Positions 21,014-38,137 of a DNA stretch of 64,000 nt are shown here, piece by piece. The stretch comes from Chordicoccus furentiruminis (GTDB lineage Bacteria; Bacillota; Clostridia; Lachnospirales; Lachnospiraceae). Below the pieces are notes generated by a model. The model did not search any database and was not told where the DNA came from. It was given only the letters and a program-made list of their open reading frames with translations. Position 1 is the first letter of the stretch. Every line of letters begins with the position of its first letter. Made by a program: the position numbers and the translations under genes. The stretch spans positions 620,001 through 684,000 of the forward strand of contig NZ_CP048829.1 in the NCBI RefSeq assembly GCF_019355395.1, given 5' to 3'.

Positions 21014-22420
21014 TCAATACGCGTTTTTGTTGACAAATCCCCGGAAAACCGTGAGGAACAGGATCTTGACATCCAGTCCCAGCGTCCAGTTTTCTATATA
21101 ATAAAGATCGTAATCGATCCGTTTGCGAATGGATGTGTCGCCGCGGTAGCCATGAACCTGGGCCCATCCCGTCATACCGGGACGGACCTGATGCTTTACC
21201 ATGTACCGCGGGATCTCTTCCTGAAATTTCTCAACAAAATACGGTCTCTCAGGGCGCGGTCCGACCAGCGACATGTCCCCCTTCAGGACGTTGAACAGCT
21301 GCGGGAGCTCATCAATGCTGGTCTTCCGCATAAAACGGCCGACACGCGTCACCCTCGGATCGTCCCGGGTCGTCCACTTCCTTTTTTCCGACCGGTTGTC
21401 CTGCACCACCATGGAACGGAACTTATACATCATGAAAGGCTTGTTGTGAAGGCCCACCCGTTCCTGCCGGAAGATGACAGGTCCCGGCGAAGTCGTCCGG
21501 ATCAGGATGGCAAACAGGAGCATCAGCGGCGAGAAGACGGCGATGCAGACGAGACTCCCGATGATATCCAGGAGACGCTTGATCATCGCGGGAAATGCAT
21601 TTGACAGCGGGACGTACCGGATATTGATCACCGGCAGTCCGAGAATGTCCTCGGTATACGGTCTGGTCGGGATAATGTTGTAGTAGTCCGGGACGAGTTT
21701 CGTATGCACACCGGACTTTTCGCAGAGCGCCACGATCGCCTCCAGCCGGTAGTACTCGGAAAGGCCGAGTGTGATCGTGATCTCATCCAGGTGATTTTCC
21801 GGGAGGATGATCATCAGATTGTCAATCCGGCCCAGCACACGGATCCCCTTGTACTCGGTGCCCGCCTCGGCCCGGTCGTCAAGAATGCCCCGGATATTGT
21901 AACCCCACTGTGGATTTGCCAGCACCCGGTCGATATACTCCTCCGCCGCACGCCCGTAGCCTACCAGCAGCACATTCTTCATGAAGCGCCCGTGACGGCG
22001 CATCCGCTTCACGATCCCCCAGATACCGAACCGGACCGCGATGTCCGCGGCTGCATTGCACACGAAAAAGACAAAGATCATGGTCCGTGACCAGTCATCC
22101 AGATGCATCGTGAACAGCGCCACGATGAAGACCAGATAACCGATGATATTGGCCGTGATCACATTGCCGATTTCCACGCGGCGGCCCTTCATCCGGTTCA
22201 CCGCGTACAGATTGCACGCCCAGTAGAGAATCAGCATCACCGGGATGATGAACGGCAGGGCCATCATATAGACCCGGTAAGGCACCGATTCGATTGAATG
22301 ATCGGAAAACAGATGGCTGCGGAACTTCAGATACCATGCCAGCCAGTAAGTCAGCGCCATGACGGCGGCATCCACGAGAGCCAGGAGTCTGTTCAGATAC
22401 CTCTGATTTTCTTCTATCAA
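21014..22420 (-). CDS. Polyprenyl-phosphate sugar-1-phosphate transferase (WcaJ/CpsE type)
   Basis: A 468-residue membrane enzyme that starts polymer synthesis by moving a hexose-1-phosphate from UDP-sugar to undecaprenyl phosphate. Four N-terminal membrane segments (about 10-120) and a soluble Rossmann-like CoA-binding-type domain ([15 protein letters not shown]) come first. A further helix ([16 protein letters not shown]) leads into the catalytic bacterial sugar transferase domain: [44 protein letters not shown]. The start is TTG, seven bases after GAGGA. A promoter directly upstream makes this the first gene of a three-gene unit. The sugar is not fixed by sequence; glucose or galactose are the usual substrates. 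Confidence 0.93.
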
Positions 22421-22506: not shown

Positions 22507-23484
22507 TCACCTGCCGGTGAAGCGCCGCACGATATTGACCCAGAGTTCGAGCTGAATCGCAAGATAGACCGGCAGCCGGTCCGGGCGGAAGCGGACGCGC
22601 CGTCCCTCCGCCGCCCCCTTCCGGGCGAGGAAAAAGCCGCCGGCCAGTCCGCGGATGTACTCGCGCCCATATCCACGGCGTGCAAAGAACACCGCCTTTG
22701 CCGCGAATCCCGGTATCAGAAAAGGCAGATTGATCAGGATCTGAAGCGGCGGCATGTTCTTCGCGATGAGATAGATGCTGTTGCGCGACGAGTTCTTCAC
22801 CTTGAAAAGATTGTAGATCGAGCCGCTGGAGGCGCTGCCCACATGGAGCACCCTCGCCGACGGGACAAACTCATTCCGATACCCGGAGAGACGGGCCCGC
22901 CATCCGATGTCGGTGTCCTCAAGATAAGCGAAATGGTGCTCGTCAAAGAGGCCCACTTTCTTCAGATACGCCGTCCGGTAGACGGCCGCTCCCGCGCAGG
23001 CGGCGAAAATCCGGCAGGGCTTTTGATATCGGGTTTCCGGCCGGCCTTTCCCCCGGGCGAAAGCCCAGCCCAGCGCGCAGTAGAGATCGCCGGCGTCGTC
23101 GATCCGGGACGGGTCGTCCATCCGAAGCATCTTCGCCTGAGCGGAAAAAAGCCGCGGATCCCGCTCCATCGCATCCATGAGTCCGGCGATGCAGCCCGGC
23201 TCCGCTTTCGTGTCATTGTTGAGGAGAAACACATAATCCATGTCGGAAGCGGATCTGATCCCTGTGTTCACCGCACCGCAGAAACCGGTGTTCTCCGGCA
23301 GAGCGATCCGCTCCGTCTCCGGGAATTCCCTCCTGAGATACGCCACGCTGCCGTCCGATGAGCCGTTGTCCACGACGATGATCCGGTCCGGCTTCCGCGT
23401 CTGGCCGCGGATCGCGCGGAGACAGTCTCCCAGATACTTTCTTCCATTATAATTGGGAATCACCACCGCGATCGTCGATGCCAT
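22507..23484 (-). CDS. GT2 family glycosyltransferase, WbbL-like
   Basis: A 325-residue enzyme starting IAVVIPNYNGRKYLGDCL with VDNGSSDGS and the DxD-equivalent FLLNNDTKAEPG. The region LEDTDIGWRARLSGYRNEFVPSARVLHVG matches the WbbL/RfbN rhamnosyltransferase group. A hydrophobic stretch near residue 250 (LQILINLPFLIPGFAAKAVFFA) may attach it to the membrane. It is the last gene of the rfb/ABC-exporter operon, 99 bases after the 604-residue GT2. Transfer of rhamnose from dTDP-rhamnose to the lipid-linked primer or chain is a reasonable guess from the neighbours, not shown by the sequence. Confidence 0.85.
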   Translation of the reverse strand: MASTIAVVIPNYNGRKYLGDCLRAIRGQTRKPDRIIVVDNGSSDGSVAYLRREFPETERIALPENTGFCGAVNTGIRSASDMDYVFLLNNDTKAEPGCIAGLMDAMERDPRLFSAQAKMLRMDDPSRIDDAGDLYCALGWAFARGKGRPETRYQKPCRIFAACAGAAVYRTAYLKKVGLFDEHHFAYLEDTDIGWRARLSGYRNEFVPSARVLHVGSASSGSIYNLFKVKNSSRNSIYLIAKNMPPLQILINLPFLIPGFAAKAVFFARRGYGREYIRGLAGGFFLARKGAAEGRRVRFRPDRLPVYLAIQLELWVNIVRRFTGR

Positions 23485-23583: not shown

Positions 23584-25398
23584 TCAGACCCGGAGCGAAT
23601 AGTTCCATTTTTTCAGCGACAGATTCGGATTGTACATCGGGTCTCCCTCCTTCAGCACATCCTCCCAGTTCTCGCGGAAGGTCTCGATCTCTCCCTGAAA
23701 ACGCCGGACCTTCTCCTCCGAATCCTCCGGACCCCTCGAAAGCGACTCGTCATGGTACAGTTCCGCGTAAGGATCGTAGACGATCCGGTACCCGGAGCGT
23801 CCGATTCTGAGGCAGAGGTCCACGTCGTTGAACGCGACGGCCAGCGCCGTGCTGAAGCCGCCCACCTTCTCGAACGCCTCCCGCTTCACCATCATGCAGG
23901 CGGCCGTCACCGCGCTCAGGTCCTGCATAATCGCCGATTTATGCAGATAACCGCTCCGTCCGCGGGGCAGTCCCACGAACATCGAGCCCGCGATGCCGCC
24001 CATTCCGACCACCACGCCGGCGCTCTGAATCCGGTTGTCCGGATAGTAGAGACGGGCTCCGACCGCTCCCACGTCCTCCCGCTGACAGACGCCCAGCATC
24101 TCCGTCAGCCAGTCGCGGCTGATCGTACCCCTCACGTCATTGTTCAGAAGAAGCAGGTAGTCGCCGGCGGCGAACCGCTCGCCGTAATTGTTGATGGCGG
24201 AGTAATTGAAGCCTTTCTTCCAGCGGACCAGCCTGACCTCCGGACGGGCGGCCAGCTCCCGGTAATACTCGAAGGCTGCTCTTTCGGTGCTGTTGTTCTC
24301 AATCACGATGATCTCGAGCCGCGGATAGCCCGTATCGAGCAGCGAATCGATGCATGCCCGCAGCGACTCCGTCTGATCCCGGTTCGGAATCAGAACGGAA
24401 ACCAACGGTTCGCCTTTCACCGGATACCGCACCCGGTAGAAGCCGAAATCAGGAAGCATCTCCACGACGCCGTCCGTTCCCGTCCGTTCGAGATGATGCT
24501 CAATGGCGCGCCGTCCCGCCTCATAGGCGTACTGCTTGCTCATCGGATTGTCGGCTGTGGAAGCCGAATGCGTCCGCCAGTGATACAGCACCCGCGGCAC
24601 TCGCGCGATCCGGGCGGCCTTCTCCGCGCAGCGGAAGATGAAGTCGTAGTCCTGCGCGCCGTTCATCGTCTCGTCAAAGGGTCCTGCCTGATCCGCGAGC
24701 TTCCGGCTCACCACGAGAAAATGCGTGATGTAGTTGTTGGAGCGAAGCAGGTCCAGATTGAATTCCGGCTTGAAATTGGGCTGGAAATGCTTCCCCCCGT
24801 CCTCCGTGATCTTGTCCTCGTCCGTGTACAGCATGTCGGCGTGACGGAGGCTGATCGCCGAAGCGATCTCATAGAGGGCGTCCGGCTCCAGCAGGTCGTC
24901 ATGATCCAGAAAGGCAATGTACTCGCCCCGGGACGCCCCGACCGCCCGGTTGGTGTTGCCGGCGATGCCTTCATTCTTCTCAAGCGGGATATACCGGATC
25001 CGGCTGTCCCGGGCCATCCACTCCGCCGTCACCTCGCGGACGCTGCGCCGCTTCTTCCCCGTCTCCTCCGACTCATCGGAAGCGCCGGCGTCCGCGATCA
25101 CCAGCTCCCACTCCGCATAGCTCTGATCCGTGACCGACTCGATCATCTGCCGGAGAAATATTTCCGGCGTATGGAAGGCCGGCACGACAATCGAAATAAG
25201 CGGCCTCTCCTTCGGCGGATGGTTTCTCTGCCTCAGCAGCTCCGTGTCCTTCGCCCGGCGCTCCTCGAACCACGGCCCGTAGGGCACGTCCTCGGGTTCC
25301 AGCCGGTCCATGAGGTGGTTCATGAACTCCTTCGTCCCGAAATGCCGCCAGTATTTCCATGCTTTTCTGATCTTGTATGGTGTGATCGGCAGCTGCAT
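23584..25398 (-). CDS. Tandem-domain GT2 glycosyltransferase (604 residues)
   Basis: This protein has two GT2 domains in one chain. The first starts near residue 67 (ISIVVPAFHTPEIFLRQM) with the metal motif FLDHDDLLEPDALYE; the second begins LVSVLIPNRDQTESLRAC with LLLNNDVRG. It ends GDPMYNPNLSLKKWNYSLRV, a tail shared with the other two tandem GT2 enzymes in this operon, so the three are paralogs. Unlike them it has only a short, about 65-residue leader and no beta domains. Tandem GT2 enzymes often add two different linkages in turn and so build a repeating unit. The ATG lies nine bases after GGGAGGA. Confidence 0.9.
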   Translation of the reverse strand: MQLPITPYKIRKAWKYWRHFGTKEFMNHLMDRLEPEDVPYGPWFEERRAKDTELLRQRNHPPKERPLISIVVPAFHTPEIFLRQMIESVTDQSYAEWELVIADAGASDESEETGKKRRSVREVTAEWMARDSRIRYIPLEKNEGIAGNTNRAVGASRGEYIAFLDHDDLLEPDALYEIASAISLRHADMLYTDEDKITEDGGKHFQPNFKPEFNLDLLRSNNYITHFLVVSRKLADQAGPFDETMNGAQDYDFIFRCAEKAARIARVPRVLYHWRTHSASTADNPMSKQYAYEAGRRAIEHHLERTGTDGVVEMLPDFGFYRVRYPVKGEPLVSVLIPNRDQTESLRACIDSLLDTGYPRLEIIVIENNSTERAAFEYYRELAARPEVRLVRWKKGFNYSAINNYGERFAAGDYLLLLNNDVRGTISRDWLTEMLGVCQREDVGAVGARLYYPDNRIQSAGVVVGMGGIAGSMFVGLPRGRSGYLHKSAIMQDLSAVTAACMMVKREAFEKVGGFSTALAVAFNDVDLCLRIGRSGYRIVYDPYAELYHDESLSRGPEDSEEKVRRFQGEIETFRENWEDVLKEGDPMYNPNLSLKKWNYSLRV

Positions 25399-25434: not shown

Positions 25435-26346
25435 TCATTTCTCTTCCTTCAGAATCCGGATATATCTCGCCAGCGCGTCATGCCAGTCGGGCAGCGGCGC
25501 GAAGCCTTCCGCCTGAATCTTCGAGCGGTCCATCCGGCTGTTGAACGGTCTTTTCGCCGCTGCGCCGTATTCCTCGGAAGACACCGGAATCACCCTCACG
25601 CTGTCGATGCCCGCCTCCTTGAAGATCGCGCAGGCGAACTCGTACCAGGAGATGTACGGGCCTTCGTTCGTCACATGATAGATGCCGTACCGGTCCGTTC
25701 CGATCATATCCGCCACGAGCCGTGCCAGATCATAGGTATAGGTCGGCGTTCCGATCTGATCGTCCACAACCCGGAGCGTGTCGTGCGTCTTCGCCAGATT
25801 CAGCATCGTCCGGATGAAATTCTTCCCGTTCGTCCCGAAGACCCAGGCGATCCGGAGGATCCAGAAGCGGCTCAGGTGTTTCCGGACAGCCTCTTCTCCT
25901 TCCGCCTTCGTCCGGCCGTAGACGTCAAGCGGTTCGTAGGGATCGTCCGGCTCCCACGGACGGGTTCCCTGGCCGTTGAACACGTAATCCGTCGAGAAAT
26001 ACATCATCGGAAGATCCATCTCCTCGCAGACGGCGGCGATGTTCTCCGTTCCGCCCGCGTTGACCTTCCGGCAGACCTCCGGCATCTCCTCCGCCTTGTC
26101 TACCGCGGTCCAGGCCGCGCAGTGCACGACGACATCCGGCCGGACCTCCCGGATCGTCCGGCGCACCGCCTCCGGATCGGTGATGTCAAGACTCACGTAC
26201 GGCATTCCGGTGACCGGCGTGCCGTCCTGAATACCTGCATAGGATTCCTTCAGATCCGTGCCGATGCCTTCAATGCCCCGTTTTGCCAGCTCGTTCATGA
26301 CGTCGTGGCCGAGCTGTCCTGCCACTCCTGTGACGAAAACCTTCAT
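25435..26346 (-). CDS. rfbD: dTDP-4-dehydrorhamnose reductase
   Basis: A 303-residue short-chain dehydrogenase. It reduces dTDP-4-dehydro-L-rhamnose to dTDP-L-rhamnose with NAD(P)H, the last step of the pathway. The nucleotide motif GVAGQLGHDV opens the protein; VVHCAAWTAVDKAE and the catalytic YxxxK (YGRTKAEGE) follow. A GGAGG site precedes the ATG. Although rfbA, rfbB and rfbC are together at the head of the operon, this gene sits about 9 kb downstream between two tandem glycosyltransferases. All four enzymes for dTDP-rhamnose are therefore present. Confidence 0.96.
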   Translation of the reverse strand: MKVFVTGVAGQLGHDVMNELAKRGIEGIGTDLKESYAGIQDGTPVTGMPYVSLDITDPEAVRRTIREVRPDVVVHCAAWTAVDKAEEMPEVCRKVNAGGTENIAAVCEEMDLPMMYFSTDYVFNGQGTRPWEPDDPYEPLDVYGRTKAEGEEAVRKHLSRFWILRIAWVFGTNGKNFIRTMLNLAKTHDTLRVVDDQIGTPTYTYDLARLVADMIGTDRYGIYHVTNEGPYISWYEFACAIFKEAGIDSVRVIPVSSEEYGAAAKRPFNSRMDRSKIQAEGFAPLPDWHDALARYIRILKEEK

Positions 26347-26419
26347 CTTCTTCCTCCTGCATGCTTCTTATGGCGGCATGCCCGTTCCGCATGCCCGTTT
26401 CCCGATCGGCGGCGCGCCG

Positions 26420-28837
26420 TCAGTTCCGCTTCAGCGAAAAATCCTGCGTCACCATGCTGAGATTCGGATTGTAGTACGGATCTCCGTCCCGGAGAATATC
26501 CGGCCAGTGCTCCTTGAAATACGCGATTTCCCGGCTGAAGCGGCTGACCTTCTCCGGCGTGTTCTCCAGCCCTCTCGACTTCGACTCATAATGATACAGC
26601 TCCGCGAACGGGTTGTACACGATGAGATACCCCTTCGAGCGGATCTTCATGCAGAGATCGATGTCGTTGAAGGCAACCGCAAGCTCCTCCGTGAAACCGC
26701 CGGCCTCTTCGAATACTTTCGCCGGCACCATCATGCAGGCCGCGGTCACCGCGCTCATGTCCTGCTGACAGATGATCCGGTGCTGGTATCCCGTGACGCC
26801 CCGCTTCTGGTTGACAAAAGCGTGTCCCGCCACGCCGCCCCAGCCGACGATCGCTCCGGCGTGCTGAATCGTGTCGTCGCCGTAGTAGAGGCGGGCACCC
26901 ACCGCGCCCACGTCCGGCCGCATCGCGTAGCCCAGCATCTCCCGGACCGCGTCGCTCGTACACTCTGTGTCATTGTTCAGGAAGAGGTAGTACTCTCCCT
27001 TCGCTGCACGCACGCCGAAATTATTGATGGCCGAGTAGTTGAAGCCGCCCCTGTAGGTCACGGTCCGGATCCGCGGATCCTCCTTCATCAGCGCTTTGTA
27101 TCCTTCGAAGGTCTCCGGTTCCTCGCTGTTGTTCTCGATGATCAGAATCTCCAGATTCCGGTATGAGGTCGTTCCGAGAAGGCTCCGGACCGCGGTGCGC
27201 AGATCGTCCAGATGGTCCTTGTTGGGGATCAGCACCGAGACCAGCGGCTCCTCCTTCCAGTGCCAGCGCGTCCGGTAGAGTCCCGGATACTCGCCGTTCT
27301 CGGCCGCTGCGGGAAGATTCTGCCGGTCGTACCACGCCTGAACCGCACGGCGTCCCGCCTCGAAGGCGTAGGACTTCGCCTCCGGGTTGGCCGAGGTGCT
27401 CCCCTCGAAGAAGCGCCAGTGGTAGAGGATCTCCGGCACGTGGCGGATGGCGGATGTATGTTCCGTGCAGCGAAGGATGAAATCGTAGTCCTGCGCTCCG
27501 TCGAAGGCCGGATCCAGGTCCCCCGTCCGCTCATACAGCGCCCGGCTCACCAGCAGAAGATGGCAGATGTAATTCACCGAGTGGAGAAAATCCGGGTCGT
27601 AATCCGGCTTCAGATTCGGCTGCATGAAGCGGTCTCCGGGTCCGATCTTGTCCTCGTCCGTGTAGATCATCTCCGTGTCCGGATACCGGCCGAGCGTCCT
27701 CATGCACTCGTACAGCGCGCTGGGAACCAGCAGGTCGTCGTGGTCGGAAAATGCAATCCACCGCCCTTTTGCCTCATGAAGTGCCGCGTTGGTGTTCTCC
27801 GCGATCCGCATCCGAGCCTCGTGGTGCAGCACCCGGATCCGGCTGTCGCCGGCGGCGATCCCGTCAAGGAGACCGGCGATCGGCGAATCCGCCCCGCTGC
27901 CGTCCGATAAAATCAGCTCCCAGTCCGGATAGGTCTGGGCCTCAATCGAATTCACCAGTTCCCGGAGGTACTTCTCCGGCGTCCGGTAGCAGGGGACGAC
28001 GATGCTCACGAGCGGATGAGCCGGAAGCGGCTCCTTCCGCTGACGGGCCAGCTCCCGCTCGGAGGGGAGATGCTTCCGGATCCACTGGCCGTACTCCACC
28101 GTCCGCATCGCCGGGTTAAAGAGCTTGTTGTACGTCTTGGACGCGAGCGCCCGGGGGCCCTGTGTACGGAGCGCCTTCCACGCCTTCTCCGCGTACCGTC
28201 CGGTCTTCGCCGCCGCGACGCCGAACCGGTCGGTCGGAAACGTCAGCACCAGCTCGTCCCCTTCCGTGCGGAAGCGGACGCGGACCGGGCCCTTTGGAAC
28301 CGGCTGCAGCTCAATGTTGAAGCCGGCGGACGGATCGACCGGGTACTCGGGAAAGAGCTCCACGGTATCGTACCGGCGGTACCGCTCCACCCGGCTGACG
28401 AGCTTTTCGCCGTCCGTCCCGTAGACGTCGACCCGGACCGGCTCCTTCGCCACCGCCCAGCCCTGAATTCTCATCAGATCATCATGGCGGAGAACGGCCG
28501 CGTCGTCGATGAAGTACCGGATCGGGCGCTGCTTCGCCCGGAGCGCCTTCACGGAAATCTCAAAGCACAGCCTTCTTCCGCTTCCGCGGTCCGCGTACAG
28601 CCTCAAAGCATGTCCTCCGATCTCCGTCCCCAGCGTCATCCGGAGCAGCGTCTCGCAGCCTCCGTACCGCTCGTCCACATTTTCGGTTTTCTTTTCGGCC
28701 GTGACGTTCACCGGCACGTCGTCGAGGGAGGCGCTGACCTCCGCCCTCGGCGCAAGCCAGCCGGTGATCAGATAAAGACCGGGATCCGTGAGGGAAAACC
28801 GGTCCTGACGGACAAGAAATCCTGCATTCTCAGCCAA
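26420..28837 (-). CDS. Tandem-domain GT2 glycosyltransferase with N-terminal beta modules (805 residues)
   Basis: Residues 1-about 215 hold two beta-rich modules with the repeated pattern YLITGWLAP and MRIQGWAVAKEPVRVDVYG, possibly carbohydrate-binding. Two GT2 domains follow: one from about 276 (LVSIVVPCYRTPEKYLREL, FSDHDDLLVPSALYE) and one beginning LVSVLIPNKDHLDDLRTA with YLFLNNDTECTSD. It ends GDPYYNPNLSMVTQDFSLKRN like its paralogs. The start is TTG, seven bases after GGGAGGAG. A two-domain enzyme next to an ABC exporter is likely to be one of the cytosolic polymerases of the polysaccharide. The donor is probably dTDP-rhamnose for at least one domain, from context only. Confidence 0.9.
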   Translation of the reverse strand: MAENAGFLVRQDRFSLTDPGLYLITGWLAPRAEVSASLDDVPVNVTAEKKTENVDERYGGCETLLRMTLGTEIGGHALRLYADRGSGRRLCFEISVKALRAKQRPIRYFIDDAAVLRHDDLMRIQGWAVAKEPVRVDVYGTDGEKLVSRVERYRRYDTVELFPEYPVDPSAGFNIELQPVPKGPVRVRFRTEGDELVLTFPTDRFGVAAAKTGRYAEKAWKALRTQGPRALASKTYNKLFNPAMRTVEYGQWIRKHLPSERELARQRKEPLPAHPLVSIVVPCYRTPEKYLRELVNSIEAQTYPDWELILSDGSGADSPIAGLLDGIAAGDSRIRVLHHEARMRIAENTNAALHEAKGRWIAFSDHDDLLVPSALYECMRTLGRYPDTEMIYTDEDKIGPGDRFMQPNLKPDYDPDFLHSVNYICHLLLVSRALYERTGDLDPAFDGAQDYDFILRCTEHTSAIRHVPEILYHWRFFEGSTSANPEAKSYAFEAGRRAVQAWYDRQNLPAAAENGEYPGLYRTRWHWKEEPLVSVLIPNKDHLDDLRTAVRSLLGTTSYRNLEILIIENNSEEPETFEGYKALMKEDPRIRTVTYRGGFNYSAINNFGVRAAKGEYYLFLNNDTECTSDAVREMLGYAMRPDVGAVGARLYYGDDTIQHAGAIVGWGGVAGHAFVNQKRGVTGYQHRIICQQDMSAVTAACMMVPAKVFEEAGGFTEELAVAFNDIDLCMKIRSKGYLIVYNPFAELYHYESKSRGLENTPEKVSRFSREIAYFKEHWPDILRDGDPYYNPNLSMVTQDFSLKRN

Positions 28838-28943
28838 ATTATCTCCTCCCTATGCGGTTTCCTCCCGTACTGGGAGGCTGATTCCGCGTCTCAGCTGCGC
28901 CGGCGGACAGGCAGACGATCTTCCTCGCAGGAGGCTGCGTCTG

Positions 28944-31900
28944 TCAGTCGGCCGGCATCCCTCCCCGCAGGGAGAAGTCCGGTCTGTCGGTCGAAAGATT
29001 CGGGTTGTAATACGGGTCGCCGTGCTGAAAGACGTCCGGCCACCTCCGGCGGAGAATCTCCGCCTCCCGCTCAAGGCGCGCATGCCGCGCCGGGTCCGCC
29101 TCCTCCGCGTCCGAGCCGCGGGTAGCGGATTCGTCATGAAGGAGACGCGCGTAGGCGTCGGCGACCACCAGCAGCTTCCGCTCTCTCACCTTCAGGCAGT
29201 AATCGATATCGTTATAGGCCACCGCCAGCGATTCCTCAAAGCCGCCGAGGGCGAGGAAAAGCTTTCGTTCCGTCATCATCGCGGCCGCCGTCACCGCGCT
29301 GACGTCCTGGGTCGCGCGGGCCCGGCTTCCCTCCGGAAACGCGTCCGCCCTCATGCCGCCGAACATATGACACGCCACGCCTCCGCAGATTCCCAGGATG
29401 ACGCCGCAGTGCTGAATCCGGCCGTCCGGGTACGTCAGATACGCGCCGACCGCGCCCACGTCCGGTCTCTGACAGTATCCGAGCATCTCTTCCATCCAAC
29501 CGGGTTCGAGCACTTCCGTATCATTGTTGAGGAAGAGCAGGTACTCTCCCTCCGCCTCCCGGGCCGCGAAGTTGTTGATCCGGGCGTAGCTGAATTCCGG
29601 TTCCGGCCACCGGACGACCTTCACCCGCGGATCCTCGTCCGTCAGTTTCGTGTAGAGGTTCTCCGTTGCCTCCTCCCGGCTTCCATTCTCGATGATCCGT
29701 ATTTCATAGTTCCGGTAATCCGTCCGCTCAAGGATCGAGCGGACACACCGGGACAGAAGGTCCGGACGGTCCCGGTTCGGAATCAGAATCGAAACCTTCG
29801 GCTCGCCTGTCACGGCAAACCGTGTGCGGTAATGACCGGCTTCGGATGTATCCGTCACCTCCGCCCGTACGCCGAGGCGGCGCCAGTGCGCTTCCACAGC
29901 CCGCCGCCCGTTCTCAAAGGCATAGCGTTTGCTGTCCGGACTCGCCGCGGTCGATCCTTCGTGTGAACGCCAGTGATAGAGCGCCTTCGGCACATGCGCC
30001 ACCGAACGGGCTCTCTCCGACGCCCGGAGGACCAGATCATAGTCCTGCGCTCCGTCACAGGCCGGATCGAGGCCGCCGGTCTCCCCGAGAAGCGTCGCGC
30101 GGATCGCCAGAAAGTGGCAGATATAGTTGGTGCCCGCCAGATAATCCGGATCAAAATCCGGCTTGAAATTCGGCGCGAAGAGGAAACGGCCCGTCACGGA
30201 CATCTTGTCCTCGTCCGTGTAGACGAGATCCGCCTCCGGATCCCGGTTGACCGCGTTCACGATCTCCCAGAGCGCGGAAGGATCCAGCACGTCGTCGTGG
30301 TCGGCAAAGGCGATCCACTCTCCCTTTGCCTCCCGGATCGCGGCGTTGGTATTCTCCGAGATGCCTCCGTTTTTCTCCAGATGGATATAGCGGATCCGGC
30401 TCTCGCCGGGTGCGGCGGCCCGAAGGAAGGCGCCCAGCGCGTCCGTCCGGCTTCCGTCCGCGAGACAGAGCTCCCACTTTCCGTAGGTCTGGGCCCGTAC
30501 CGAGTCAACCAGCTCCTTCAGGAAGGCCGGCGGCGTGTCGTAAAGCGGAACGACGAGGCTGATCAGCGGTTCATATCCGAAACGGGCGGCCCGTTCCGCG
30601 GTCCGCTCCGCCTCCGTCTTCTCGCGGTCCATTGCCCATTCGTCGTACCCGGTGACCGGAAGCGTTTCTCCCGGCGGCAGCGCTTTCCGGCGCGCCGCCC
30701 GCGCCGCGCGCCGCCGGATCGGATCAGCGATCAGCCCCACCGGTTCCCGGAGCACGCCGCGGGGCGTCTCCGCCTGAAGGATCAGCGGCAGCTCGCCGAG
30801 ACGGTCGTAATCGATTTCGATATGAAATCCGGGCCGGCGGTCTTCCGTAAGTCCCAGCGCTTTCGTCACATCCTTCCGCTCCGTCCGGCTGATCCGGACG
30901 GACGCGTCGCGGCCGTCCGGCCGCAGCACCCTGAGCCGCTCTCCCGGGAATTCCGGGTCCGCAGCCCAGCCGAGAATATGGATCGCGTCCGGTGCGGGCT
31001 TCCGGCGGTCCACCGTGAGGTAAATGCCCGCGCCGTTGGCCACATCGGGGCGGATGGAGGCAAACGGATCGCTTTTCCCGAGGCGGGCGCGTGCGGCGCG
31101 GTACGCGCGGACGCCCCGCGTCGCCTCGGCGGCGCGCAGCGCGTCCGTCATCCGGTCCACGGTCCGATACGCGCTGTCAAGACGCGCCTCCAGCTCCCGC
31201 GTCTCTCTCCGCTGCGCGGCGAGCACTTCGGCGGCACCCTTCGTCACCTGTTCGCGTCCGGCTCTGATCTCCGCCTCCACGACGAGGCGCGCCGCCCCGT
31301 CCGGGACGGAAAAGAGAAGCTGGGGATCCGGCGCGGGGAAGACATAGAAGCCGCCGTCTGCCATGAACCCGTTCGACCCGATCTGATCCGGACGAACCGT
31401 CCGGCCGTCAATCCAGACGCCGCGGAGCGCGACGCAGACCGGCAGCTCCGTCGGATCCAGCCGGACCGCCCGAATTCCCGAAAGCGAAACATCCGCCCTG
31501 ATCCGTCCCGCTTCATCCGCGGTGAGAGCGGCGGTATCCGCCTCTGTAAAGCCCGCCCCGTGATCGAAGTAAAGGACAGCGCGCGCCCCGCAGCTCCCCC
31601 GGCCTGCGTCGCCGCCGGTCAGTTCCGCGAGCGTCGCCGCGCCCTTTGTCACTTCCGGATAGAGCTTCCAGAGCGGCGTGCCGCCCTGGCTGATCCACGC
31701 CTGAAACGACTCCTCCATCGTCTGAAAAAGAGTCAGATCGGCCGGATCAACTCCGACGGCGCGGTACAGACGGTCCGCCGGCAGATCCCGCCGGGCAGAG
31801 CTGCCCTCCGCATAGTAATGCACCAGCCGCCACTTGATGAAGGCGGCCGGAACCGGAAAAGGCATCGTCCACTCATAGTCGATCACATGGTACAGGCCGT

Positions 31901-32366
31901 CCCTCAGAATGACGTTGCCGGCAACCAGATCGAGGTCCGAGACAGCCGGCGCCATCCATTCTTTCTCACGGAGTTTCTCCGGAAAAACCGCGCGGAACGC
32001 GTCCGTCACGGCAAACGGCCGGTCCGCCGTCCGGTCGATCTCGGCGGCGAAGTCCGCCAGATCCTGAAGCAGGCCGTCGAGGTCATCCGGAAGCCGGCGG
32101 TCCAGCTTCTGCTCCAGCGTCTCCCCCTCGAGGAACTCGAAGACAGCCGCTCCCTCCTCAAGGCGCACCCGGTTCGCTCTGAGGCGCGTGCCCGCAAAGA
32201 GACGGTCCAGCTCGCGTCCGATCCGTTCCTGCGCCCCGATATGCGCCTCCGACTCCGGCCGAAGCGCCCGCTTCCGGACGGATCTGGTCCCGTTTTCCTC
32301 GGAAATCTCGGTCACGATCTGAAACGCGGGCCCGCGGTCATTGGAAAATTTTGAGAAGAGGATCAT
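28944..32366 (-). CDS. Kinase-like domain fused to coiled coil and two GT2 glycosyltransferase domains (1140 residues)
   Basis: Residues 1-about 240 look like an aminoglycoside-phosphotransferase/WbdD-type kinase fold: Lys32 in VRKRAL, a hinge FEFLEGETL, a catalytic loop with Asp146 and Asn151 (DLDLVAGN) and Asp163 in VIDYEW, the DFG equivalent. Beta-rich segments follow at about 255-365 and 440-550, with a predicted coiled coil between them (about 368-420, REQVTKGAAEVLAAQRRETR). Two GT2 domains come next, from 602 (LISLVVPLYDTPP, FADHDDVLDPS) and from 857 (VSILIPNRDRPDLLS, FLNNDTEV). The tail GDPYYNPNLS matches its paralogs. The ATG overlaps the methyltransferase stop as ATGA. The fusion suggests one protein that polymerises and also phosphorylates the chain end. 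Confidence 0.88.
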   Translation of the reverse strand: MILFSKFSNDRGPAFQIVTEISEENGTRSVRKRALRPESEAHIGAQERIGRELDRLFAGTRLRANRVRLEEGAAVFEFLEGETLEQKLDRRLPDDLDGLLQDLADFAAEIDRTADRPFAVTDAFRAVFPEKLREKEWMAPAVSDLDLVAGNVILRDGLYHVIDYEWTMPFPVPAAFIKWRLVHYYAEGSSARRDLPADRLYRAVGVDPADLTLFQTMEESFQAWISQGGTPLWKLYPEVTKGAATLAELTGGDAGRGSCGARAVLYFDHGAGFTEADTAALTADEAGRIRADVSLSGIRAVRLDPTELPVCVALRGVWIDGRTVRPDQIGSNGFMADGGFYVFPAPDPQLLFSVPDGAARLVVEAEIRAGREQVTKGAAEVLAAQRRETRELEARLDSAYRTVDRMTDALRAAEATRGVRAYRAARARLGKSDPFASIRPDVANGAGIYLTVDRRKPAPDAIHILGWAADPEFPGERLRVLRPDGRDASVRISRTERKDVTKALGLTEDRRPGFHIEIDYDRLGELPLILQAETPRGVLREPVGLIADPIRRRAARAARRKALPPGETLPVTGYDEWAMDREKTEAERTAERAARFGYEPLISLVVPLYDTPPAFLKELVDSVRAQTYGKWELCLADGSRTDALGAFLRAAAPGESRIRYIHLEKNGGISENTNAAIREAKGEWIAFADHDDVLDPSALWEIVNAVNRDPEADLVYTDEDKMSVTGRFLFAPNFKPDFDPDYLAGTNYICHFLAIRATLLGETGGLDPACDGAQDYDLVLRASERARSVAHVPKALYHWRSHEGSTAASPDSKRYAFENGRRAVEAHWRRLGVRAEVTDTSEAGHYRTRFAVTGEPKVSILIPNRDRPDLLSRCVRSILERTDYRNYEIRIIENGSREEATENLYTKLTDEDPRVKVVRWPEPEFSYARINNFAAREAEGEYLLFLNNDTEVLEPGWMEEMLGYCQRPDVGAVGAYLTYPDGRIQHCGVILGICGGVACHMFGGMRADAFPEGSRARATQDVSAVTAAAMMTERKLFLALGGFEESLAVAYNDIDYCLKVRERKLLVVADAYARLLHDESATRGSDAEEADPARHARLEREAEILRRRWPDVFQHGDPYYNPNLSTDRPDFSLRGGMPAD

Positions 32367-33289
32367 GCCTTCCCTCCCGTGAGATCCACCAGAAACGAGT
32401 TGGAGAACAGCGGAAAGAGCCCGTCCCCGATCAGCGCGTCCCACGCCCGCGTCTCGTCGAAGAGCACCATCCGCTGCCGGTCGTAATTGACCAGATTATT
32501 CCGAAGCTCCCCCTTCTTCGGCAGCCATCCGTCAGAATAGACCGCCATCGGAAGCTTGTAGTCCGGATAGGGATAATAGAATGTCCAGTCCGCCGCTCCT
32601 GTCTCCCGGAAGAGACGGACCAGAGCGGGCTTCGAGAAGGTATGGGCATACTTCGTCTCCGGATAGTTCTCGATTCCGTCGAAGAAGCGGCCGGAATGAT
32701 CCTCCCGGCATCCCGCGAAATACTTGAGGCCCAGCCGGTTCTCGATCGCGATCAGAAGATGGCCGCCGGGGCGCAGATGCCCCAGCACGATCCGGAGAAA
32801 ATCCGCATAAGGCTGATCCGAATGAATGTAGCTGCTCCCGTACTCGAAAACGCCGATCAGCGTGATCACGTCATAATCCCGGGGCAGCTTCTTCTCCACG
32901 TCCTCGAAGTTGCCGAGCCGGATCTCGAGATTGCCCGCGTTCCGGTTCCGGTACGCATTGACAAGACTTCTCTTCTTCGAGAGATCGACGCAGGTGACCG
33001 ATCCGGCCGCCCGCACGAGGGCCGGCGTCACCGCGCCGCAGCCCGACCCGATCTCCAGCACCCGGTCCGTTTTCCGGAACGGGTACCAGCTGACAATGTT
33101 CTGACGCACCGACGAGAAGTGATACATCACCGGCCATGATTTCCGCTCCGCGCAGACGATGTCGAAGCGGGACGGGTTCTCGTTCCGCGCGATCTCAAGC
33201 AGCTCGTCCTCCACCGCGCCGTCCGAGTAAAGGTCCCGGCCCGGATAATCGTCCTCGTTGATGCGCACCGATCCGATGATCTGATCCAT
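32363..33289 (-). CDS. SAM-dependent methyltransferase of the polysaccharide operon
   Basis: A 308-residue class I methyltransferase. The SAM-binding motif I is RVLEIGSGCGAVTPAL (residues 76-91), followed by VTCVDLSKKR (acidic residue of strand 2) and DYDVITLIGVFEYG (motif IV). A long C-terminal part has ENRLGLKYFAG, FFDGIENYP and FYYPYPDYKLP, which is not in small-molecule methyltransferases and suits a large substrate. It is coupled to the kinase-GT2 fusion by an ATGA overlap and follows the exporter ATPase by nine bases. WbdD of E. coli O9a joins such a methyltransferase to a kinase to cap O-antigen chains; a similar capping role is inferred here. Confidence 0.85.
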   Translation of the reverse strand: MDQIIGSVRINEDDYPGRDLYSDGAVEDELLEIARNENPSRFDIVCAERKSWPVMYHFSSVRQNIVSWYPFRKTDRVLEIGSGCGAVTPALVRAAGSVTCVDLSKKRSLVNAYRNRNAGNLEIRLGNFEDVEKKLPRDYDVITLIGVFEYGSSYIHSDQPYADFLRIVLGHLRPGGHLLIAIENRLGLKYFAGCREDHSGRFFDGIENYPETKYAHTFSKPALVRLFRETGAADWTFYYPYPDYKLPMAVYSDGWLPKKGELRNNLVNYDRQRMVLFDETRAWDALIGDGLFPLFSNSFLVDLTGGKA

Positions 33290-33298
33290 CGCATTCCC

Positions 33299-34597
33299 TC
33301 ACTTCTCCGCCGTCAGCTTCTTCAGCGTCACCTCGGAATTCATGTCGTAGAAGCCCACCGTGTTCTTCGCCGAAATCACCGTCACGTTCAGCACATCATA
33401 AAGGCGGTGAAACACCCGGAAGGATCCGGCCTGATAGCCGGTACAGCCGAAGCTCAGGAGATACTCGCCGCCCTGTAGATTCATCTCCTGACGGAAGGAG
33501 ACCTCGATTTCGTCCCCCGCCTCCATGCTCTCAACAGGCGCCTTCTCGAACATCGTATTGGTTCCGGTGATCTCGGTGCCCTGGAGATTCTTGACTGTAT
33601 AGGCGAAGATCGGATTCTCCACGCGCTGTGTAAAATGCACCCGCATCCGGATCGTAAACGGCTCTCCCTTGTTGAGCGCGTTGGTCTCCCGTCCGTCCTG
33701 ATCGAAGGTCAGGACCTGCAGGATCCTGGCCTGACCCTCGCCGTATTCAAGCGTGTCGGGGTTCATCGGAAGGTGTCCGGTGAGCGGAACATCCTTCGCC
33801 ACCGCCCGGGCGCCCTCCGGTTCGTTCTTCTTCCCGTCCTGCTCCCCGTCGCCCAGATGGACCAGCAGCTTCTTGTAGAGATCGACCATCTCCTTCGGTC
33901 CGCCCTCCGCGACCCTGACGCCCTTGTTGAGCAGGACCACCCGGTCGCAGTACTTCGAGACGGAGCTTAAATCATGGCTCACGAACAGGATCGTCTTGCC
34001 TTCCTTCTTGAACTCCTCGAATTTATGGTAGCATTTGGCCTGAAAGAAGACGTCGCCCACCGAGAGCGCCTCGTCCACGATGAGAATCTCAGGGTCGATG
34101 TTGATCGCCACCGCGAACGCGAGCCGGACGAACATGCCGGAGGAATAGGTCTTGCAGGGCTGGTAGACGAAGTCGCCGATGTCCGCGAAATCGAGGATGT
34201 CCTCGAGCTTCGCGTCGATCTCCTCCTTCGAGAAGCCGATCATCGTGCCGTTCAGGTATACGTTCTCGATCCCGGTGTACTCCATATTGAAGCCGGCGCC
34301 CAGCTCAAGCAGAGCGGAGATCCGGCCGTTCACCCTCACCTCTCCGGATGTGGGCGTCAGCACGCCGGTGATGATCTTCAGGATGGTGGATTTTCCCGAG
34401 CCGTTCGTCCCGATGATGCCCACCGTCTCACCCTTCCGGACGCTGAAGCTCACGTCGTCGAGCGCCCTGATCTCCTTCGAGTACCGGTGCTTCTTCCGGC
34501 CGATGCCGAACTCCTCCCTCAGACGGTCCGAGGGCTTCCGGTACAGCCGGTATGCCTTTGTCAGATGCGATACCTCGATTGCGTTTTCTGCTTCCAT
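33299..34597 (-). CDS. Polysaccharide ABC exporter ATPase with Wzt-like C-terminal domain
   Basis: A 432-residue ATPase. The nucleotide-binding domain (1-about 245) has Walker A GTNGSGKS (63-70), the ABC signature YSSGM (151-155), Walker B ILIVDEA (171-177) and switch His208. Residues about 285-425 form an added beta domain like the carbohydrate-binding C-terminal domain of Wzt (FTIRMRVHFTQRVENPIFAYTVKN, QEMNLQGGEYLLSFGCTGY). In Wzt that domain recognises the capped end of the chain and lets only finished polymer be exported. TagH, the teichoic acid counterpart, has a different C-terminal part. It lies between the permease and the methyltransferase, 51 and nine bases away. Confidence 0.93.
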   Translation of the reverse strand: MEAENAIEVSHLTKAYRLYRKPSDRLREEFGIGRKKHRYSKEIRALDDVSFSVRKGETVGIIGTNGSGKSTILKIITGVLTPTSGEVRVNGRISALLELGAGFNMEYTGIENVYLNGTMIGFSKEEIDAKLEDILDFADIGDFVYQPCKTYSSGMFVRLAFAVAINIDPEILIVDEALSVGDVFFQAKCYHKFEEFKKEGKTILFVSHDLSSVSKYCDRVVLLNKGVRVAEGGPKEMVDLYKKLLVHLGDGEQDGKKNEPEGARAVAKDVPLTGHLPMNPDTLEYGEGQARILQVLTFDQDGRETNALNKGEPFTIRMRVHFTQRVENPIFAYTVKNLQGTEITGTNTMFEKAPVESMEAGDEIEVSFRQEMNLQGGEYLLSFGCTGYQAGSFRVFHRLYDVLNVTVISAKNTVGFYDMNSEVTLKKLTAEK

Positions 34598-34648
34598 CCG
34601 GCCTCCCTCCGGTTCCGGCGAACCGGTTCACCGCCTTTCCGTTTTGTT

Positions 34649-35467
34649 TTACAGCACGTCCGCGAAATGCCGTCTCAGCTTCTGGAACACATGAGTGCCG
34701 AACAGCAGCAGCGCCGCGGTCCAGGTCCAGAAATAGAGATTGTACCATCCGTGCTCCCAGAACCAGGTACGGCCGTAGATCGCGTCGCGGTAGCCGGTCA
34801 CGACATAATTGAAAGGATTGATCCGGAACAGGAACGCCCAGGACCGTGTCTCGAAGGACTTCAGCACGAACATGATCGGCATCGACCAGACCGCCACCTG
34901 CATGAAAATGCTGATGATCTGAGAGAGGTCCCTGAAAAAGACCACGACCGCGCACGTCCCGTAGACGATGCCCAGGCAGAAAAGGAACATGGCGAAAAAA
35001 TAATACGGCAGCTGCAGCAGCGTCAGCGAGGGACGGATGCCGTAGCAGAGCGCGATCACCATCGCCACCAGCACAAAGAATACATGCACAAATAAAGCGG
35101 AGACCGCCTTCACCATCGGCAGGACGCCGATCTCGAAGACGACCTTCTTCACAAGATAACTGTATTCGAGAAGCACATTGGTGCCCGAGACCATCAGCTC
35201 CTGGCAGTAGAACCAGGGGACAATGCCGCAGGTCAGATAGAGCACGAAGGGTACGCTCGTCTGGGTCTGAGTCCGGAAACCGAGTCCGAAGACCAGCCAG
35301 TAGACCAGTACGGTCACAACCGGCTGGACAAACGCCCAGATAATGCCGAGATAGGACCCGGCATAGCGGGTCCGGAAATCATTTTTCGCCAGCTTTACGA
35401 TCAGCCTCCGGTTCCTGTGGATCTCGGAAGGAAGGCTGATCAGAAACGGTTTCTTTTTTTCTGTCAT
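34649..35467 (-). CDS. Polysaccharide ABC exporter permease (Wzm/TagG type)
   Basis: A 272-residue membrane protein with six predicted helices of the ABC-2 type. The N-terminal cytosolic segment KLAKNDFRTRYAGSYLGIIWAFVQPVVTVLVYWLVFGLGF is the family's amphipathic and first membrane region, and the end INPFNYVVTGYRDAIYG is also typical. With the ATPase gene it forms the transporter that flips the lipid-linked finished polysaccharide. The internal ATG was chosen because MTEKKKPFLISLPSEI starts four bases after the rfbC stop and longer frames overlap rfbC. The order rfbC-permease-ATPase is common in rhamnan and O-antigen clusters. Confidence 0.93.
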   Translation of the reverse strand: MTEKKKPFLISLPSEIHRNRRLIVKLAKNDFRTRYAGSYLGIIWAFVQPVVTVLVYWLVFGLGFRTQTQTSVPFVLYLTCGIVPWFYCQELMVSGTNVLLEYSYLVKKVVFEIGVLPMVKAVSALFVHVFFVLVAMVIALCYGIRPSLTLLQLPYYFFAMFLFCLGIVYGTCAVVVFFRDLSQIISIFMQVAVWSMPIMFVLKSFETRSWAFLFRINPFNYVVTGYRDAIYGRTWFWEHGWYNLYFWTWTAALLLFGTHVFQKLRRHFADVL

Positions 35468-35471
35468 GCAG

Positions 35472-36038
35472 TCAGGCTCCGAACCGCGCCCGCGTGTATT
35501 CCCGGAAGGATCCCCACTTCGTATCCTTGTCGGAGAGGTTGAGCGGAACATTCTCCAGCAGCGGCCACTTCACGTCCAGATCCGGATCGTTCCACGCGAG
35601 GCCGCCCTCGTCGTTGGGATGATAGAAATCCGTGCACTTGTAGCAGAACTCCGCCTCGTCCGACAGGACGTAGAAGCCGTGCGCGAAATTCTTCGGGATG
35701 AAGAACTGCTTCTTGTTCTCCTCGCTCAGCAGCACGCCGTACCATTTGCCGTAGGTATCCGATCCTTCCCGCAGATCGACGGCCACATCGAAGACCTCGC
35801 CCCGGACGACCCGGACCAGCTTGTCCTGCGGATAGTGAATCTGGAAATGCAGTCCGCGGAGAACGCCTCTCGTGGAGCTCGACTGGTTGTCCTGCACAAA
35901 AGTCTGCGGGATGCCGGCTTCCCTGAAGTCGTTGTAATTGTAGGTCTCCATGAAATAACCCCGGCGGTCGCCGAAGACGGTCGGCGTGATCACCTTCAGT
36001 CCCTCGATGCCGCAGGTCTCAACCTGAATCTTTCCCAT
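35472..36038 (-). CDS. rfbC: dTDP-4-dehydrorhamnose 3,5-epimerase
   Basis: A 188-residue cupin-fold enzyme of normal length that inverts C3 and C5 of dTDP-4-dehydro-6-deoxyglucose. The catalytic His lies in GVLRGLHFQ; the segments VVRGEVFDVAVDLREGS, FFIPKNFAHGFYVLSD and YKCTDFYHPNDEGGLAWNDP are all family signatures. The ATG is preceded by a weak GAGATG site. It follows rfbA by 126 bases and precedes the permease by four bases. Third enzyme in the order rfbB, rfbA, rfbC of this operon. Confidence 0.97.
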   Translation of the reverse strand: MGKIQVETCGIEGLKVITPTVFGDRRGYFMETYNYNDFREAGIPQTFVQDNQSSSTRGVLRGLHFQIHYPQDKLVRVVRGEVFDVAVDLREGSDTYGKWYGVLLSEENKKQFFIPKNFAHGFYVLSDEAEFCYKCTDFYHPNDEGGLAWNDPDLDVKWPLLENVPLNLSDKDTKWGSFREYTRARFGA

Positions 36039-36164
36039 CTCTCATCCGTCCTTTCCGAACCGGCCGCATCCTGACGGCGCACCGGCCCGCTCTTCGCGGC
36101 GTCCGCCCGGACGCCGCGTCCCCCTTCTCCCTGTGTTTTGTTCAGGACTCCGGCCGCTGTTTCT

Positions 36165-37049
36165 TCAGCGGACCCCAGAGCCGAGTCCCTCCGCGATATC
36201 CATCAGATACTGGCCGTAGGCGGTCTTCATCAGCGGCTGCGCCAGCTTCACCAGCTGATCACGGTCAATGAAGCCCCGCTTGTAGGCGATCTCCTCGATG
36301 CAGGAGATATACAGGCCCTGTCTCTTTTCAAAAGCCGCGACAAAATCCGCCGCATCAAGCAGCATGTCGTGATTGCCGGTATCGAGCCAGGCAAATCCCC
36401 GGCCCAGCGTCTCCACGAAGAGATCGCCCCGGCGGAGATACTCGTTGTTGACACTGGTGATCTCGAGCTCGCCCCGCGCGGAAGGCTTCACGTTTCTCGC
36501 GATCTCCACGACGTCGTTGTCGTAGAAATAAAGCCCCGGCACCGCGTAGTTGGACTTCGGGCGCTCCGGCTTCTCCTCGATGGAGATCGCCCGCCCGTCC
36601 TTGTCGAATTCAACGACGCCGTACTCTCTCGGATCTTTCACGTAGTAGCCGAAGATCGTCGCGCCCTTCTCCCGCTCCGCCGCCGCCCGAAGCACCCGGG
36701 AGAAGCTCTGGCCGTAGAAGATATTGTCGCCCAGCACCAGCGCGACCCGGTCGTTTCCGATGAAATCGGCGCCGAGAATGAAGGCTTCCGCCAGTCCGTT
36801 GGGCTTCGGCTGGACCTTGTATGTGAAATGCATGCCGAGCTGGCTTCCATCTCCGAAGAGTTCCTCGAAGGCCGGAAGATCCCGCGGCGTCGAGATGATC
36901 AGAATATCCCGGATCCCCGCCAGCATCAGCGTGGACAGCGGATAATAGATCATCGGCTTGTCATAGACCGGCATCAGCTGCTTGCTGACCGCTTTTGTCA
37001 GCGGGTAAAGACGCGTACCGCTGCCTCCCGCCAGAATGATTCCCTTCAT
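36165..37049 (-). CDS. rfbA: Glucose-1-phosphate thymidylyltransferase
   Basis: A 294-residue nucleotidyltransferase that makes dTDP-glucose, the first step to dTDP-rhamnose. The N-terminal motif [18 protein letters not shown] binds nucleotide, followed by [37 protein letters not shown] and [12 protein letters not shown]. The ATG at this position has AGAGGTG at seven bases; a GTG three codons upstream overlaps the rfbB stop and is less likely. Length and motifs are normal. The gap to rfbC (126 bases) is G/C-rich with short hairpins but shows no promoter. Confidence 0.96.
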
Positions 37050-37054
37050 CGCGC

Positions 37055-38137
37055 TCACCTCTGTCCGTACATGCTCTGATAGTAGTTCTGATAGGCGCCG
37101 GAGGTCACATGGTCCATCCAGTCGGTATGCTCAAGATACCAGGCCACGGTCTTCCGGATGCCGTCCTCGAAATTTGTCTCGGGGTACCAGCCCACCTCCG
37201 CCCGGATCTTGTCCGGCGCGATGGCGTAGCGGCGGTCATGACCCTTCCGGTCGGTCACATATGTGATCAGGTCGTCGGAGACAAGGGCCTTTCTCGGATC
37301 GCTGTCCGGCAGCAGCTCCTTCAGCGTATTCAGCACGGTATGTACGATCTGAATGTTTTGCCGCTCGTTATGGCCGCCGATGTTGTAGGTCTCGAAGAGC
37401 CTGCCCTTCTCCTGCACCATGTCGATTCCCTTGCAGTGATCCTCCACATACAGCCAGTCGCGGATATTCTTTCCGTCGCCGTACACCGGCAGCGCGCGCC
37501 CGTGAAGCGCGTTGTTGATGAGAAGCGGGATCAGCTTTTCCGGGAACTGATACGGTCCGTAGTTGTTGCTGCAGTTGGTGATGTTCGCCGGGAAATGATA
37601 GGTGTCCATAAACGCCTTGACCATAAAGTCAGAGGACGCCTTCGAAGCCGAGTAGGGGCTGTGGGGATCGTACTTCGTCGTCTCATGGAAATACTCGTTC
37701 GGATCCGAGAGAGAGCCGTACACTTCGTCCGTGGAAACATGAAGGAACTTGTGATCCTCCGGATAGCTTCCGTCCTCCCGCTCCCATGCCGCCCGCGCCG
37801 CGTTCAGCATCGTCAGCGTGCCCAGCACGTTGGTGCGGACGAACAGGGTGGGATCCTTGATGCTCCGGTCCACATGGCTCTCGGCCGCGAAATGGACCAC
37901 CCGGTTGATGTCGTTCTCCCGGAACAGCCGGCCGATCGTCTCCGCATCGCAGACATCCGCCTTCACAAAGGTGTAGTTGTCCCGCTTCTCCACATCTCTC
38001 AGGTTTTCCAGATTTCCCGCGTATGTCAGCTTGTCCACATTGATGATCCGGATCGAGCCGCCATACTTCCGGAACATGTAATGAATGTAATTGGATCCGA
38101 TAAAGCCGGCTCCGCCGGTCACGAGATACGTGCGCAT
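37055..38137 (-). CDS. rfbB: dTDP-glucose 4,6-dehydratase
   Basis: A 360-residue extended short-chain dehydrogenase that converts dTDP-glucose to dTDP-4-dehydro-6-deoxyglucose using bound NAD. The Rossmann motif is [23 protein letters not shown] and the catalytic [15 protein letters not shown] with Thr in [11 protein letters not shown] are present. Normal family length is about 340-360. It is the first gene of the 15.6-kb polysaccharide operon and has a 190-base structured leader after a good promoter. Its stop lies five bases before the rfbA ATG. Confidence 0.97.

Follow-up and report, generated by a model that had tools for sequence, protein, structure and literature searches.

Introduction

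In Escherichia coli O9a, polysaccharide chains are terminated before ABC export by WbdD, which phosphorylates and then methylates the chain end; methyltransferase (MT), kinase and helix follow each other in this order, with MT and kinase fused and the polymerase encoded separately (PMC3482155). In Klebsiella pneumoniae O7, MT and kinase belong to a single protein, ORF6, whose kinase goes unrecognised by family libraries; the same chain also contains an Ig-like domain, a coiled coil and two GT2 glycosyltransferase (GT) modules that use dTDP-rhamnose and bear DXDD and NXD motifs (PMC11231755). ORF6 puts methyl phosphate on position 3 of the terminal rhamnose; methylation was incomplete in vitro, and the D441A variant has lost phosphorylation (PMC11231755). 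Here we analysed a 64,000-nucleotide stretch of the Chordicoccus furentiruminis (Lachnospiraceae) genome (contig NZ_CP048829.1, positions 620,001 to 684,000; the window), in which three adjacent genes encode a Wzt-type ABC ATPase, an MT and a protein with a predicted kinase domain and two GT2 modules. We consider it probable that MT and kinase together terminate the chain in two steps, in the manner of Klebsiella O7, and that the resulting cap would be read by Wzt before export.

The O7 authors describe their kinase as quite different from that of WbdD in sequence and structure and their MT as bearing some structural likeness to that of WbdD; AmiN is given as the nearest fold to the kinase and CgnL as the nearest to the MT (PMC11231755). 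Klebsiella O12 WbbB combines polymerase, ruler and terminator in a single protein, and O7 ORF6 nearly does so (PMC11231755). The taxa named in the same paper are alpha- and gammaproteobacteria, cyanobacteria and Methanoculleus, and we found no mention of Gram-positive hosts in its available text. Among Gram-positives, Geobacillus stearothermophilus exports a rhamnan S-layer glycan through Wzm/Wzt; its WsaE links an MT to two rhamnosyltransferases and the chain end carries a 2-O-methyl cap, a kinase not being mentioned in the available text (PMC2943079). The rhamnose-rich S-layer glycan of Clostridioides difficile Ox247 (SLCT-11), likewise exported by an ABC system, has a phosphorylated non-reducing rhamnose that was assigned as a cyclic phosphate, and the available main text mentions neither kinase nor methyltransferase and names no terminator gene (PMC6254364). 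For the R. gnavus glucorhamnan, the accessible part of a review describing the polymer mentions no terminator. Beyond the C. difficile phosphate cap we found no Gram-positive methyl-phosphate terminator in print, in a search outside which most subscription papers lay. Mann, Kimber and Whitfield (2019, Glycobiology) reportedly surveyed terminators and cap-binding modules, and Gram-positive examples may already be covered there.

Likeness of the putative terminator genes to Klebsiella O7

The three genes (28944-34597) are part of a co-directional block on the minus strand (about 19318-38137). They were recovered as the preliminary description had placed them: wzt with a PF14524 domain, the MT gene and, coupled to it by ATGA, the kinase-GT2-GT2 gene. 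In this ATGA the MT stop overlaps the start of the kinase gene, which we set at the ATG at 32366, versus the GTG of the mechanical open reading frame (ORF); it is preceded by the purine-rich GGGAGGGA.

Likeness to O7 was tested through a homologue from Pseudomonas asturiensis, not with Klebsiella ORF6 itself. Searching plasmid records by tblastn with the window MT gave seven matches, two of them covering more than 90% of the MT and both gammaproteobacterial. The kinase had no match in plasmid records by tblastn. The P. asturiensis protein WP_024686765.1 (1457 amino acids, plasmid pCC1524), whose gene adjoins wzm- and wzt-type genes, has Y28, Y66, G91, G93, E112 and Y158 under the same numbers as in the published account of O7 ORF6, and the Asp of its kinase lies at 443 versus D441 in O7. 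Identity with the window reaches 36% over 292 amino acids for the MT and 39% over 539 for the GT region, in which DHDD at 689 and NND at 947 represent the DXDD and NXD motifs. The window kinase profile matched the kinase segment of WP_024686765.1 with 28.7 bits; among 2364 kinase-free ORFs the top score was 5.7 bits, and among 500 shuffles it was 8.8 bits. By hhalign the probability was 93% (E=2.6e-7). The window Wzt is 37-38% identical over 442-445 columns to the Wzt proteins of two gammaproteobacterial clusters (Pseudomonas, 37% over 442).

The window and Klebsiella O7 have in common the spacing of the S-adenosylmethionine (SAM) site of the MT, a library-missed kinase with a catalytic Asp, a beta-rich domain next to it and a helix (both as predicted in the window) and two GT2 modules, and both clusters contain dTDP-rhamnose genes, wzm and wzt. 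They differ in that MT and kinase are one chain in O7, whereas they are encoded here by separate genes coupled by ATGA, and in that O7 belongs to a lipopolysaccharide host, whereas the window comes from a Gram-positive with an LCP (LytR-CpsA-Psr) ligase. Judged by sequence and via the Pseudomonas homologue, the closest match of the module appears to be the Klebsiella O7 terminator ORF6, nearer than E. coli WbdD. By this homology, which supports an earlier suggestion made for the locus, termination is most likely of the methyl-phosphate type on a rhamnose polymer; we infer the reaction, the identity of the cap, the sugar, length control and attachment.

The protein of Citrobacter braakii is 43% identical to that of P. 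asturiensis over 75% of the query, and rml genes adjoin its gene; a blastn search of E. coli complete genomes with the C. braakii MT-kinase gene gave no match. The O7-like clusters of both species are located on plasmids (pF217-3 in C. braakii, pCC1524 in P. asturiensis), the Citrobacter plasmid being predicted to be conjugative. Because of this plasmid location, the terminator genes may move between hosts.

Kinase and methyltransferase

An alignment of the window kinase with 80 relatives (81 rows) was used for AlphaFold2 and for conservation. Residues 1-230 were confidently predicted to adopt a kinase fold, with predicted local distance difference test (pLDDT) blocks of 91-98 that drop to 49-75 at 231-260. 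K32, D146, N151, D163, E165 and W166 are identical in all 81 rows; D146, N151 and D163 are the residues that the preliminary description had singled out as kinase-like, at the same numbers. No significant match to residues 1-250 was obtained in Pfam, NCBIfam or PDB sequences (best PDB E 0.22 with the single sequence, 0.14 with the profile). Foldseek placed APH(3')-Ia, MphH and APH(2'') first, with SYK-like protein kinases and LicA lower; TM-scores by target were 0.27-0.50 among the best 50 of 1858 rows, for a query model that spanned 600 residues and several domains. The WbdD machinery that had been proposed for the locus did not emerge, the kinase being tied by sequence to the O7 type instead: WbdD was not among these best 50 of 1858 rows, a comparison that is indirect and made without WbdD sequence or coordinates, and a search of PDB sequences with the kinase profile yielded no chain of WbdD at E<=10, the presence of WbdD in the searched set being unchecked.

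The MT belongs to the class I SAM methyltransferases according to Pfam, and its AlphaFold2 model has a pLDDT of 94. Its residues Y21, Y56, G81, G83, D102 and Y150 correspond to the O7 SAM residues Y28, Y66, G91, G93, E112 and Y158. Five of the six are constant in 81/81 aligned rows; position 102 is D, as in the window, in 42 rows and E in 39. Foldseek of the MT model returned assorted class I methyltransferases including phosphoethanolamine MTs, and nothing specific.

Beta-rich domain, helix and the ruler question

Residues 260-370 are predicted to be rich in beta-strands and occupy the position that an Ig-like domain has in O7 ORF6. Behind them, where a coiled coil had been expected from the sequence, a helix is indeed predicted (372-414 and 417-429). 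A short coiled coil in this region is a possibility: the Pfam coiled-coil model matches 382-417 at E=0.065, far under its cut-off, and heptad periodicity is mildly over that of shuffles (2% of 2000 at period 3.5, which gave the strongest signal of four periods).

The room available for a ruler was measured from the D347 column in 79 of the 80 relatives, 70 without GT fusion and nine GT-fused. In 52 of the 70, at most 60 residues follow this column, last strands included, so that in 52/79 there is little room for a long coiled coil; 15/70 have at least 70 residues, and the nine GT-fused relatives have 101-260 up to the GT start. Helix-based length control is therefore not general among relatives, and we consider the ruler doubtful as a general feature of them. 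As to the idea that polymerase, ruler and terminator share one chain, the layout here is nearly of this kind, with the MT apart; it is a known layout and not a novelty, since O7 ORF6 already (nearly) has it, as does O12 WbbB.

Distribution and gene arrangement

To cover the family, 200 Lachnospiraceae genomes were sampled by genus (the C. furentiruminis genome included). At E<=1e-3, the kinase domain was present in 103 of the 200 genera, and in an even phylum sample at E<=1e-6 in 7 of 398 genomes, four of the seven being Lachnospiraceae. In 40/40 loci taken from the 103 kinase genomes, an MT match adjoins the kinase or is fused to it (two matches are weak or cut). A second set, which shares some genomes with these 40 loci, consists of the best 80 of 532 relatives obtained by scanning genome contigs with the MT alignment. 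These are mainly Lachnospiraceae, joined by Clostridium puniceum, C. weizhouense and Enterococcus sp. BWR-S5. All 80 have the kinase, fused to the MT in 60 and separate in 20; GT2 modules are joined in nine, and a Wzt_C domain lies within the fetched stretch in 78. The split form in the window is thus one arrangement of a homologous module, and not a system rebuilt, as the preliminary description had it.

Module order is not fixed, since three relatives (L080, L092 and L061) hold a GT2-GT2 gene between wzt and the MT-kinase gene; the N-terminus of its product is like that of the window protein encoded at 26420-28837.

One-chain polymerase-ruler-terminators (O12, nearly O7) and methyl-phosphate termination were already known. 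As far as our searches show, what is new is that the module is widespread in Gram-positives, that it exists in split form and that it is linked to high-scoring Wzt domains.

The cap-binding domain of Wzt

The Wzt-like C-terminal domain that had been noticed in the ATPase was corroborated by its PF14524 match at residues 283-419 and by its best PDB match, E. coli Wzt 2R5O (E=2e-5); Aquifex domains followed at 0.025 and more (6O14, 0.029). According to the available source text, 2R5O is 100% identical to a Klebsiella Wzt. The Aquifex domains (6O14) bind 3-O-methyl mannose (PMC9445017). In the trimmed alignment, the window domain is 25% identical to 2R5O and 21% to the Aquifex fragment.

Wzt_C was found in 118 of the 200 genomes at E<=1e-10, and 99 of the 118 also have the kinase. 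We separated a high-scoring group (101 genomes, E<=3.8e-35, at least 121 bits) from 33 lower-scoring domains (at most 119.9 bits). Kinase and high-scoring Wzt_C occur together in 99 genomes, the kinase by itself in four and the domain by itself in two. Of the high-scoring domains, 96/101 have a kinase no more than 6 kb away on their own strand, versus 0/33 of the lower-scoring ones within 6 kb; when the line is moved to 130 bits on the same lists, the linkage is 95/100 versus 1/34. A tree of 50 domains (25 kinase-linked, 20 lower-scoring, two gammaproteobacterial, the window and two PDB fragments) contains a split that unites the linked Firmicutes domains with both gammaproteobacterial domains and 2R5O (SH 0.889, UFboot 84).

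Proposed mechanism and alternatives

In the mechanism that we propose, the WcaJ-type enzyme would start the chain on a lipid carrier and the GT2 pairs would extend the polymer in the cytoplasm, probably from dTDP-rhamnose. The kinase would then phosphorylate the terminal sugar and the MT methylate the terminal phosphate. The cap-binding domain of Wzt would recognise the capped end, so that only finished chains would leave through Wzm/Wzt, and the LCP enzyme would most likely join the exported chain to peptidoglycan.

Several observations weigh against an O7-type terminator. AmiN was not among the best 50 of 1858 Foldseek rows for the kinase, and CgnL was not among the best 50 for the MT. The C. 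braakii homologue reached 4.9 bits with the kinase profile, which is under the best shuffle and not significant, and has Glu at the D163 position. In the alignment, the K32 position is occupied by His in the homologue from Pseudomonas and by Arg in that from Citrobacter, and ATP binding may therefore differ. The line between the two Wzt_C groups was set after the scores were known, at a place without a gap (121.0 versus 119.9 bits), and the split in the tree has moderate support. In raw identity over the trimmed alignment, the window domain is no nearer to the two gammaproteobacterial domains (18-19%) than to the lower-scoring group (mean 18%), and 2R5O is a domain that we take to be that of the O9a Wzt. 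Finally, the rhamnose end of the C. difficile Ox247 glycan, the sole Gram-positive rhamnose glycan with a phosphate cap that our search brought up, was assigned a 2,3-cyclic phosphate, not a methyl phosphate (PMC6254364).

The main alternative is a cap that is phosphate-based without being methyl phosphate: the kinase would make a terminal or cyclic phosphate, and the MT would methylate a sugar hydroxyl or another site. For the phosphorylated rhamnose of Ox247 a role in termination was proposed by the authors (PMC6254364), and Geobacillus WsaE, with its MT fused to two rhamnosyltransferases, caps by 2-O-methylation (PMC2943079). The window MT nevertheless aligns over most of its length with an O7-type MT, whose published homologue methylates phosphate (PMC11231755), and an MT accompanies the kinase in 40/40 and 80/80 loci of the partly overlapping sets; we regard such a cap as unlikely. 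A true WbdD of the E. coli O9a type, acquired from Gram-negative bacteria, would account for the identical order of activities, and it would fit the many relatives that are MT-kinase proteins of about 700 amino acids (WbdD has 708 according to the available source), 2R5O as the nearest solved structure to the window cap-binding domain and the likeness of the O7 MT to that of WbdD (PMC11231755). This origin is nonetheless highly improbable in our judgement: WbdD was found neither by the kinase profile (E<=10) nor among 56 MT profile matches (E<=1e-3), aminoglycoside and macrolide phosphotransferases head the Foldseek list, and clear homology exists to the O7 type instead.

The kinase is joined here to GT modules and could act on every repeat, in which case kinase and MT would place internal, repeated phosphate decorations and no terminal cap. 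The linkage to high-scoring Wzt cap-binding domains and the behaviour of O7 (PMC11231755) point to the chain end, which leaves little probability for internal decoration. With antibiotic kinases as top Foldseek matches, we also considered that the domain might have no relation to the cluster and be a kinase of antibiotics or other small molecules that lies here by chance; given the MT partner in all loci examined and the Wzt linkage, we rejected this as scarcely credible.

Extending the O7-type terminator beyond the window, we see an even chance that a methyl-phosphate (or phosphate) cap, made by O7-type MT-kinase pairs, is standard in about half of the Lachnospiraceae genera. A single dedicated class of Wzt cap-binding domains, related to those of Gram-negative phosphate-capped systems, would recognise it; a coiled-coil ruler would often be absent and length set otherwise. 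If true, gene content would allow the chain end to be predicted for a large class of surface polysaccharides of gut commensals, and the export checkpoint of Gram-negative O antigens would also work in Gram-positive cells. A substrate would become testable for a kinase domain without significant Pfam or NCBIfam match that occurs in 103/200 sampled genera. The ruler idea could also be tested on the relatives, as a natural series of terminators of which some have a helical ruler and others lack it.

Gene order and neighbouring features

From 5' to 3', the block reads rmlB, rmlA, rmlC, wzm, wzt, MT, kinase-GT2-GT2, GT2-GT2, rmlD, GT2-GT2, GT2, WcaJ-type initiator and LCP ligase (Table 1). The start of wzm was placed at residue 29, just behind rmlC, because of the position of the rmlC stop.

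Table 1. Features of the polysaccharide block, in window coordinates
Feature	Position	Strand	Evidence
rmlB	37055..38137	-	TIGR01181 above cut-off
rmlA	36165..37058	-	TIGR01207 above cut-off
rmlC	35472..36038	-	TIGR01221 above cut-off
Wzm permease	34649..35467	-	PF01061 E=6.1e-13; start inferred, residue 29 of ORF 34649-35551
Wzt, ABC ATPase with cap-binding domain, 432 aa	33299..34597	-	PF00005, PF14524
Wzt C-terminal cap-binding domain, residues 283-419	33341..33751	-	PF14524 E=1.8e-43
SAM MT, 308 aa, putative methyl-transferring half of the terminator	32363..33289	-	Pfam Methyltransf_12 etc.
Kinase / beta-domain / helix / GT2 / GT2 protein, 1140 aa	28944..32366	-	Pfam (PF00535 E=1.2e-46), AlphaFold2
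Predicted kinase domain, residues 1-250	31617..32366	-	AlphaFold2, Foldseek, invariant motifs, profile match to O7-type kinase
Beta-strand-rich domain, residues 260-370	31257..31589	-	AlphaFold2 strands, pLDDT blocks 92-98
Predicted helix 372-414 and 417-429, possible short coiled coil	31080..31253	-	AlphaFold2, periodicity
Low-confidence linker domain, residues about 440-560	30687..31049	-	AlphaFold2 pLDDT blocks 46-74
First GT2 module, DHDD motif at residue 689	29817..30569	-	PF00535, alignment
Second GT2 module, NND motif at residue 947	28947..29807	-	PF00535, alignment
Second GT2-GT2 protein, 805 aa, TTG start	26420..28837	-	PF00535
rmlD	25435..26346	-	TIGR01214 above cut-off
Third GT2-GT2 protein	23584..25398	-	PF00535
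GT2 glycosyltransferase	22507..23484	-	PF00535
WcaJ-type undecaprenyl-phosphate glucose phosphotransferase, initiator	21014..22420	-	TIGR03023 506 bits, cut-off 411
LCP family glycopolymer ligase	19318..20997	-	PF03816 E=1.8e-28

The LCP ligase gene contains a long low-complexity Asp/Gly/Ser/Tyr stretch (20209-20500) made of degenerate tandem repeats with periods of 12-75, and the LCP model aligns with two separate parts of the protein. Running against the direction of the cluster, a gene at 40519-43302 (+) encodes a YfhO-family membrane protein, with, on the same strand, a large ORF upstream of it (38091-40499) that has no Pfam match at E<=1e-3. Further along, 46254-47582 and 48862-50271 (-) encode two proteins like the DVU_1553-type AMP-dependent CoA ligase, both below the cut-off, with a thiamine-diphosphate enzyme nearby (44399-46324). 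The region 50288-54562 (-) holds a CdaA-type diadenylate cyclase and a YbbR-like protein, followed by a D-alanyl-D-alanine carboxypeptidase at 50288-52108.

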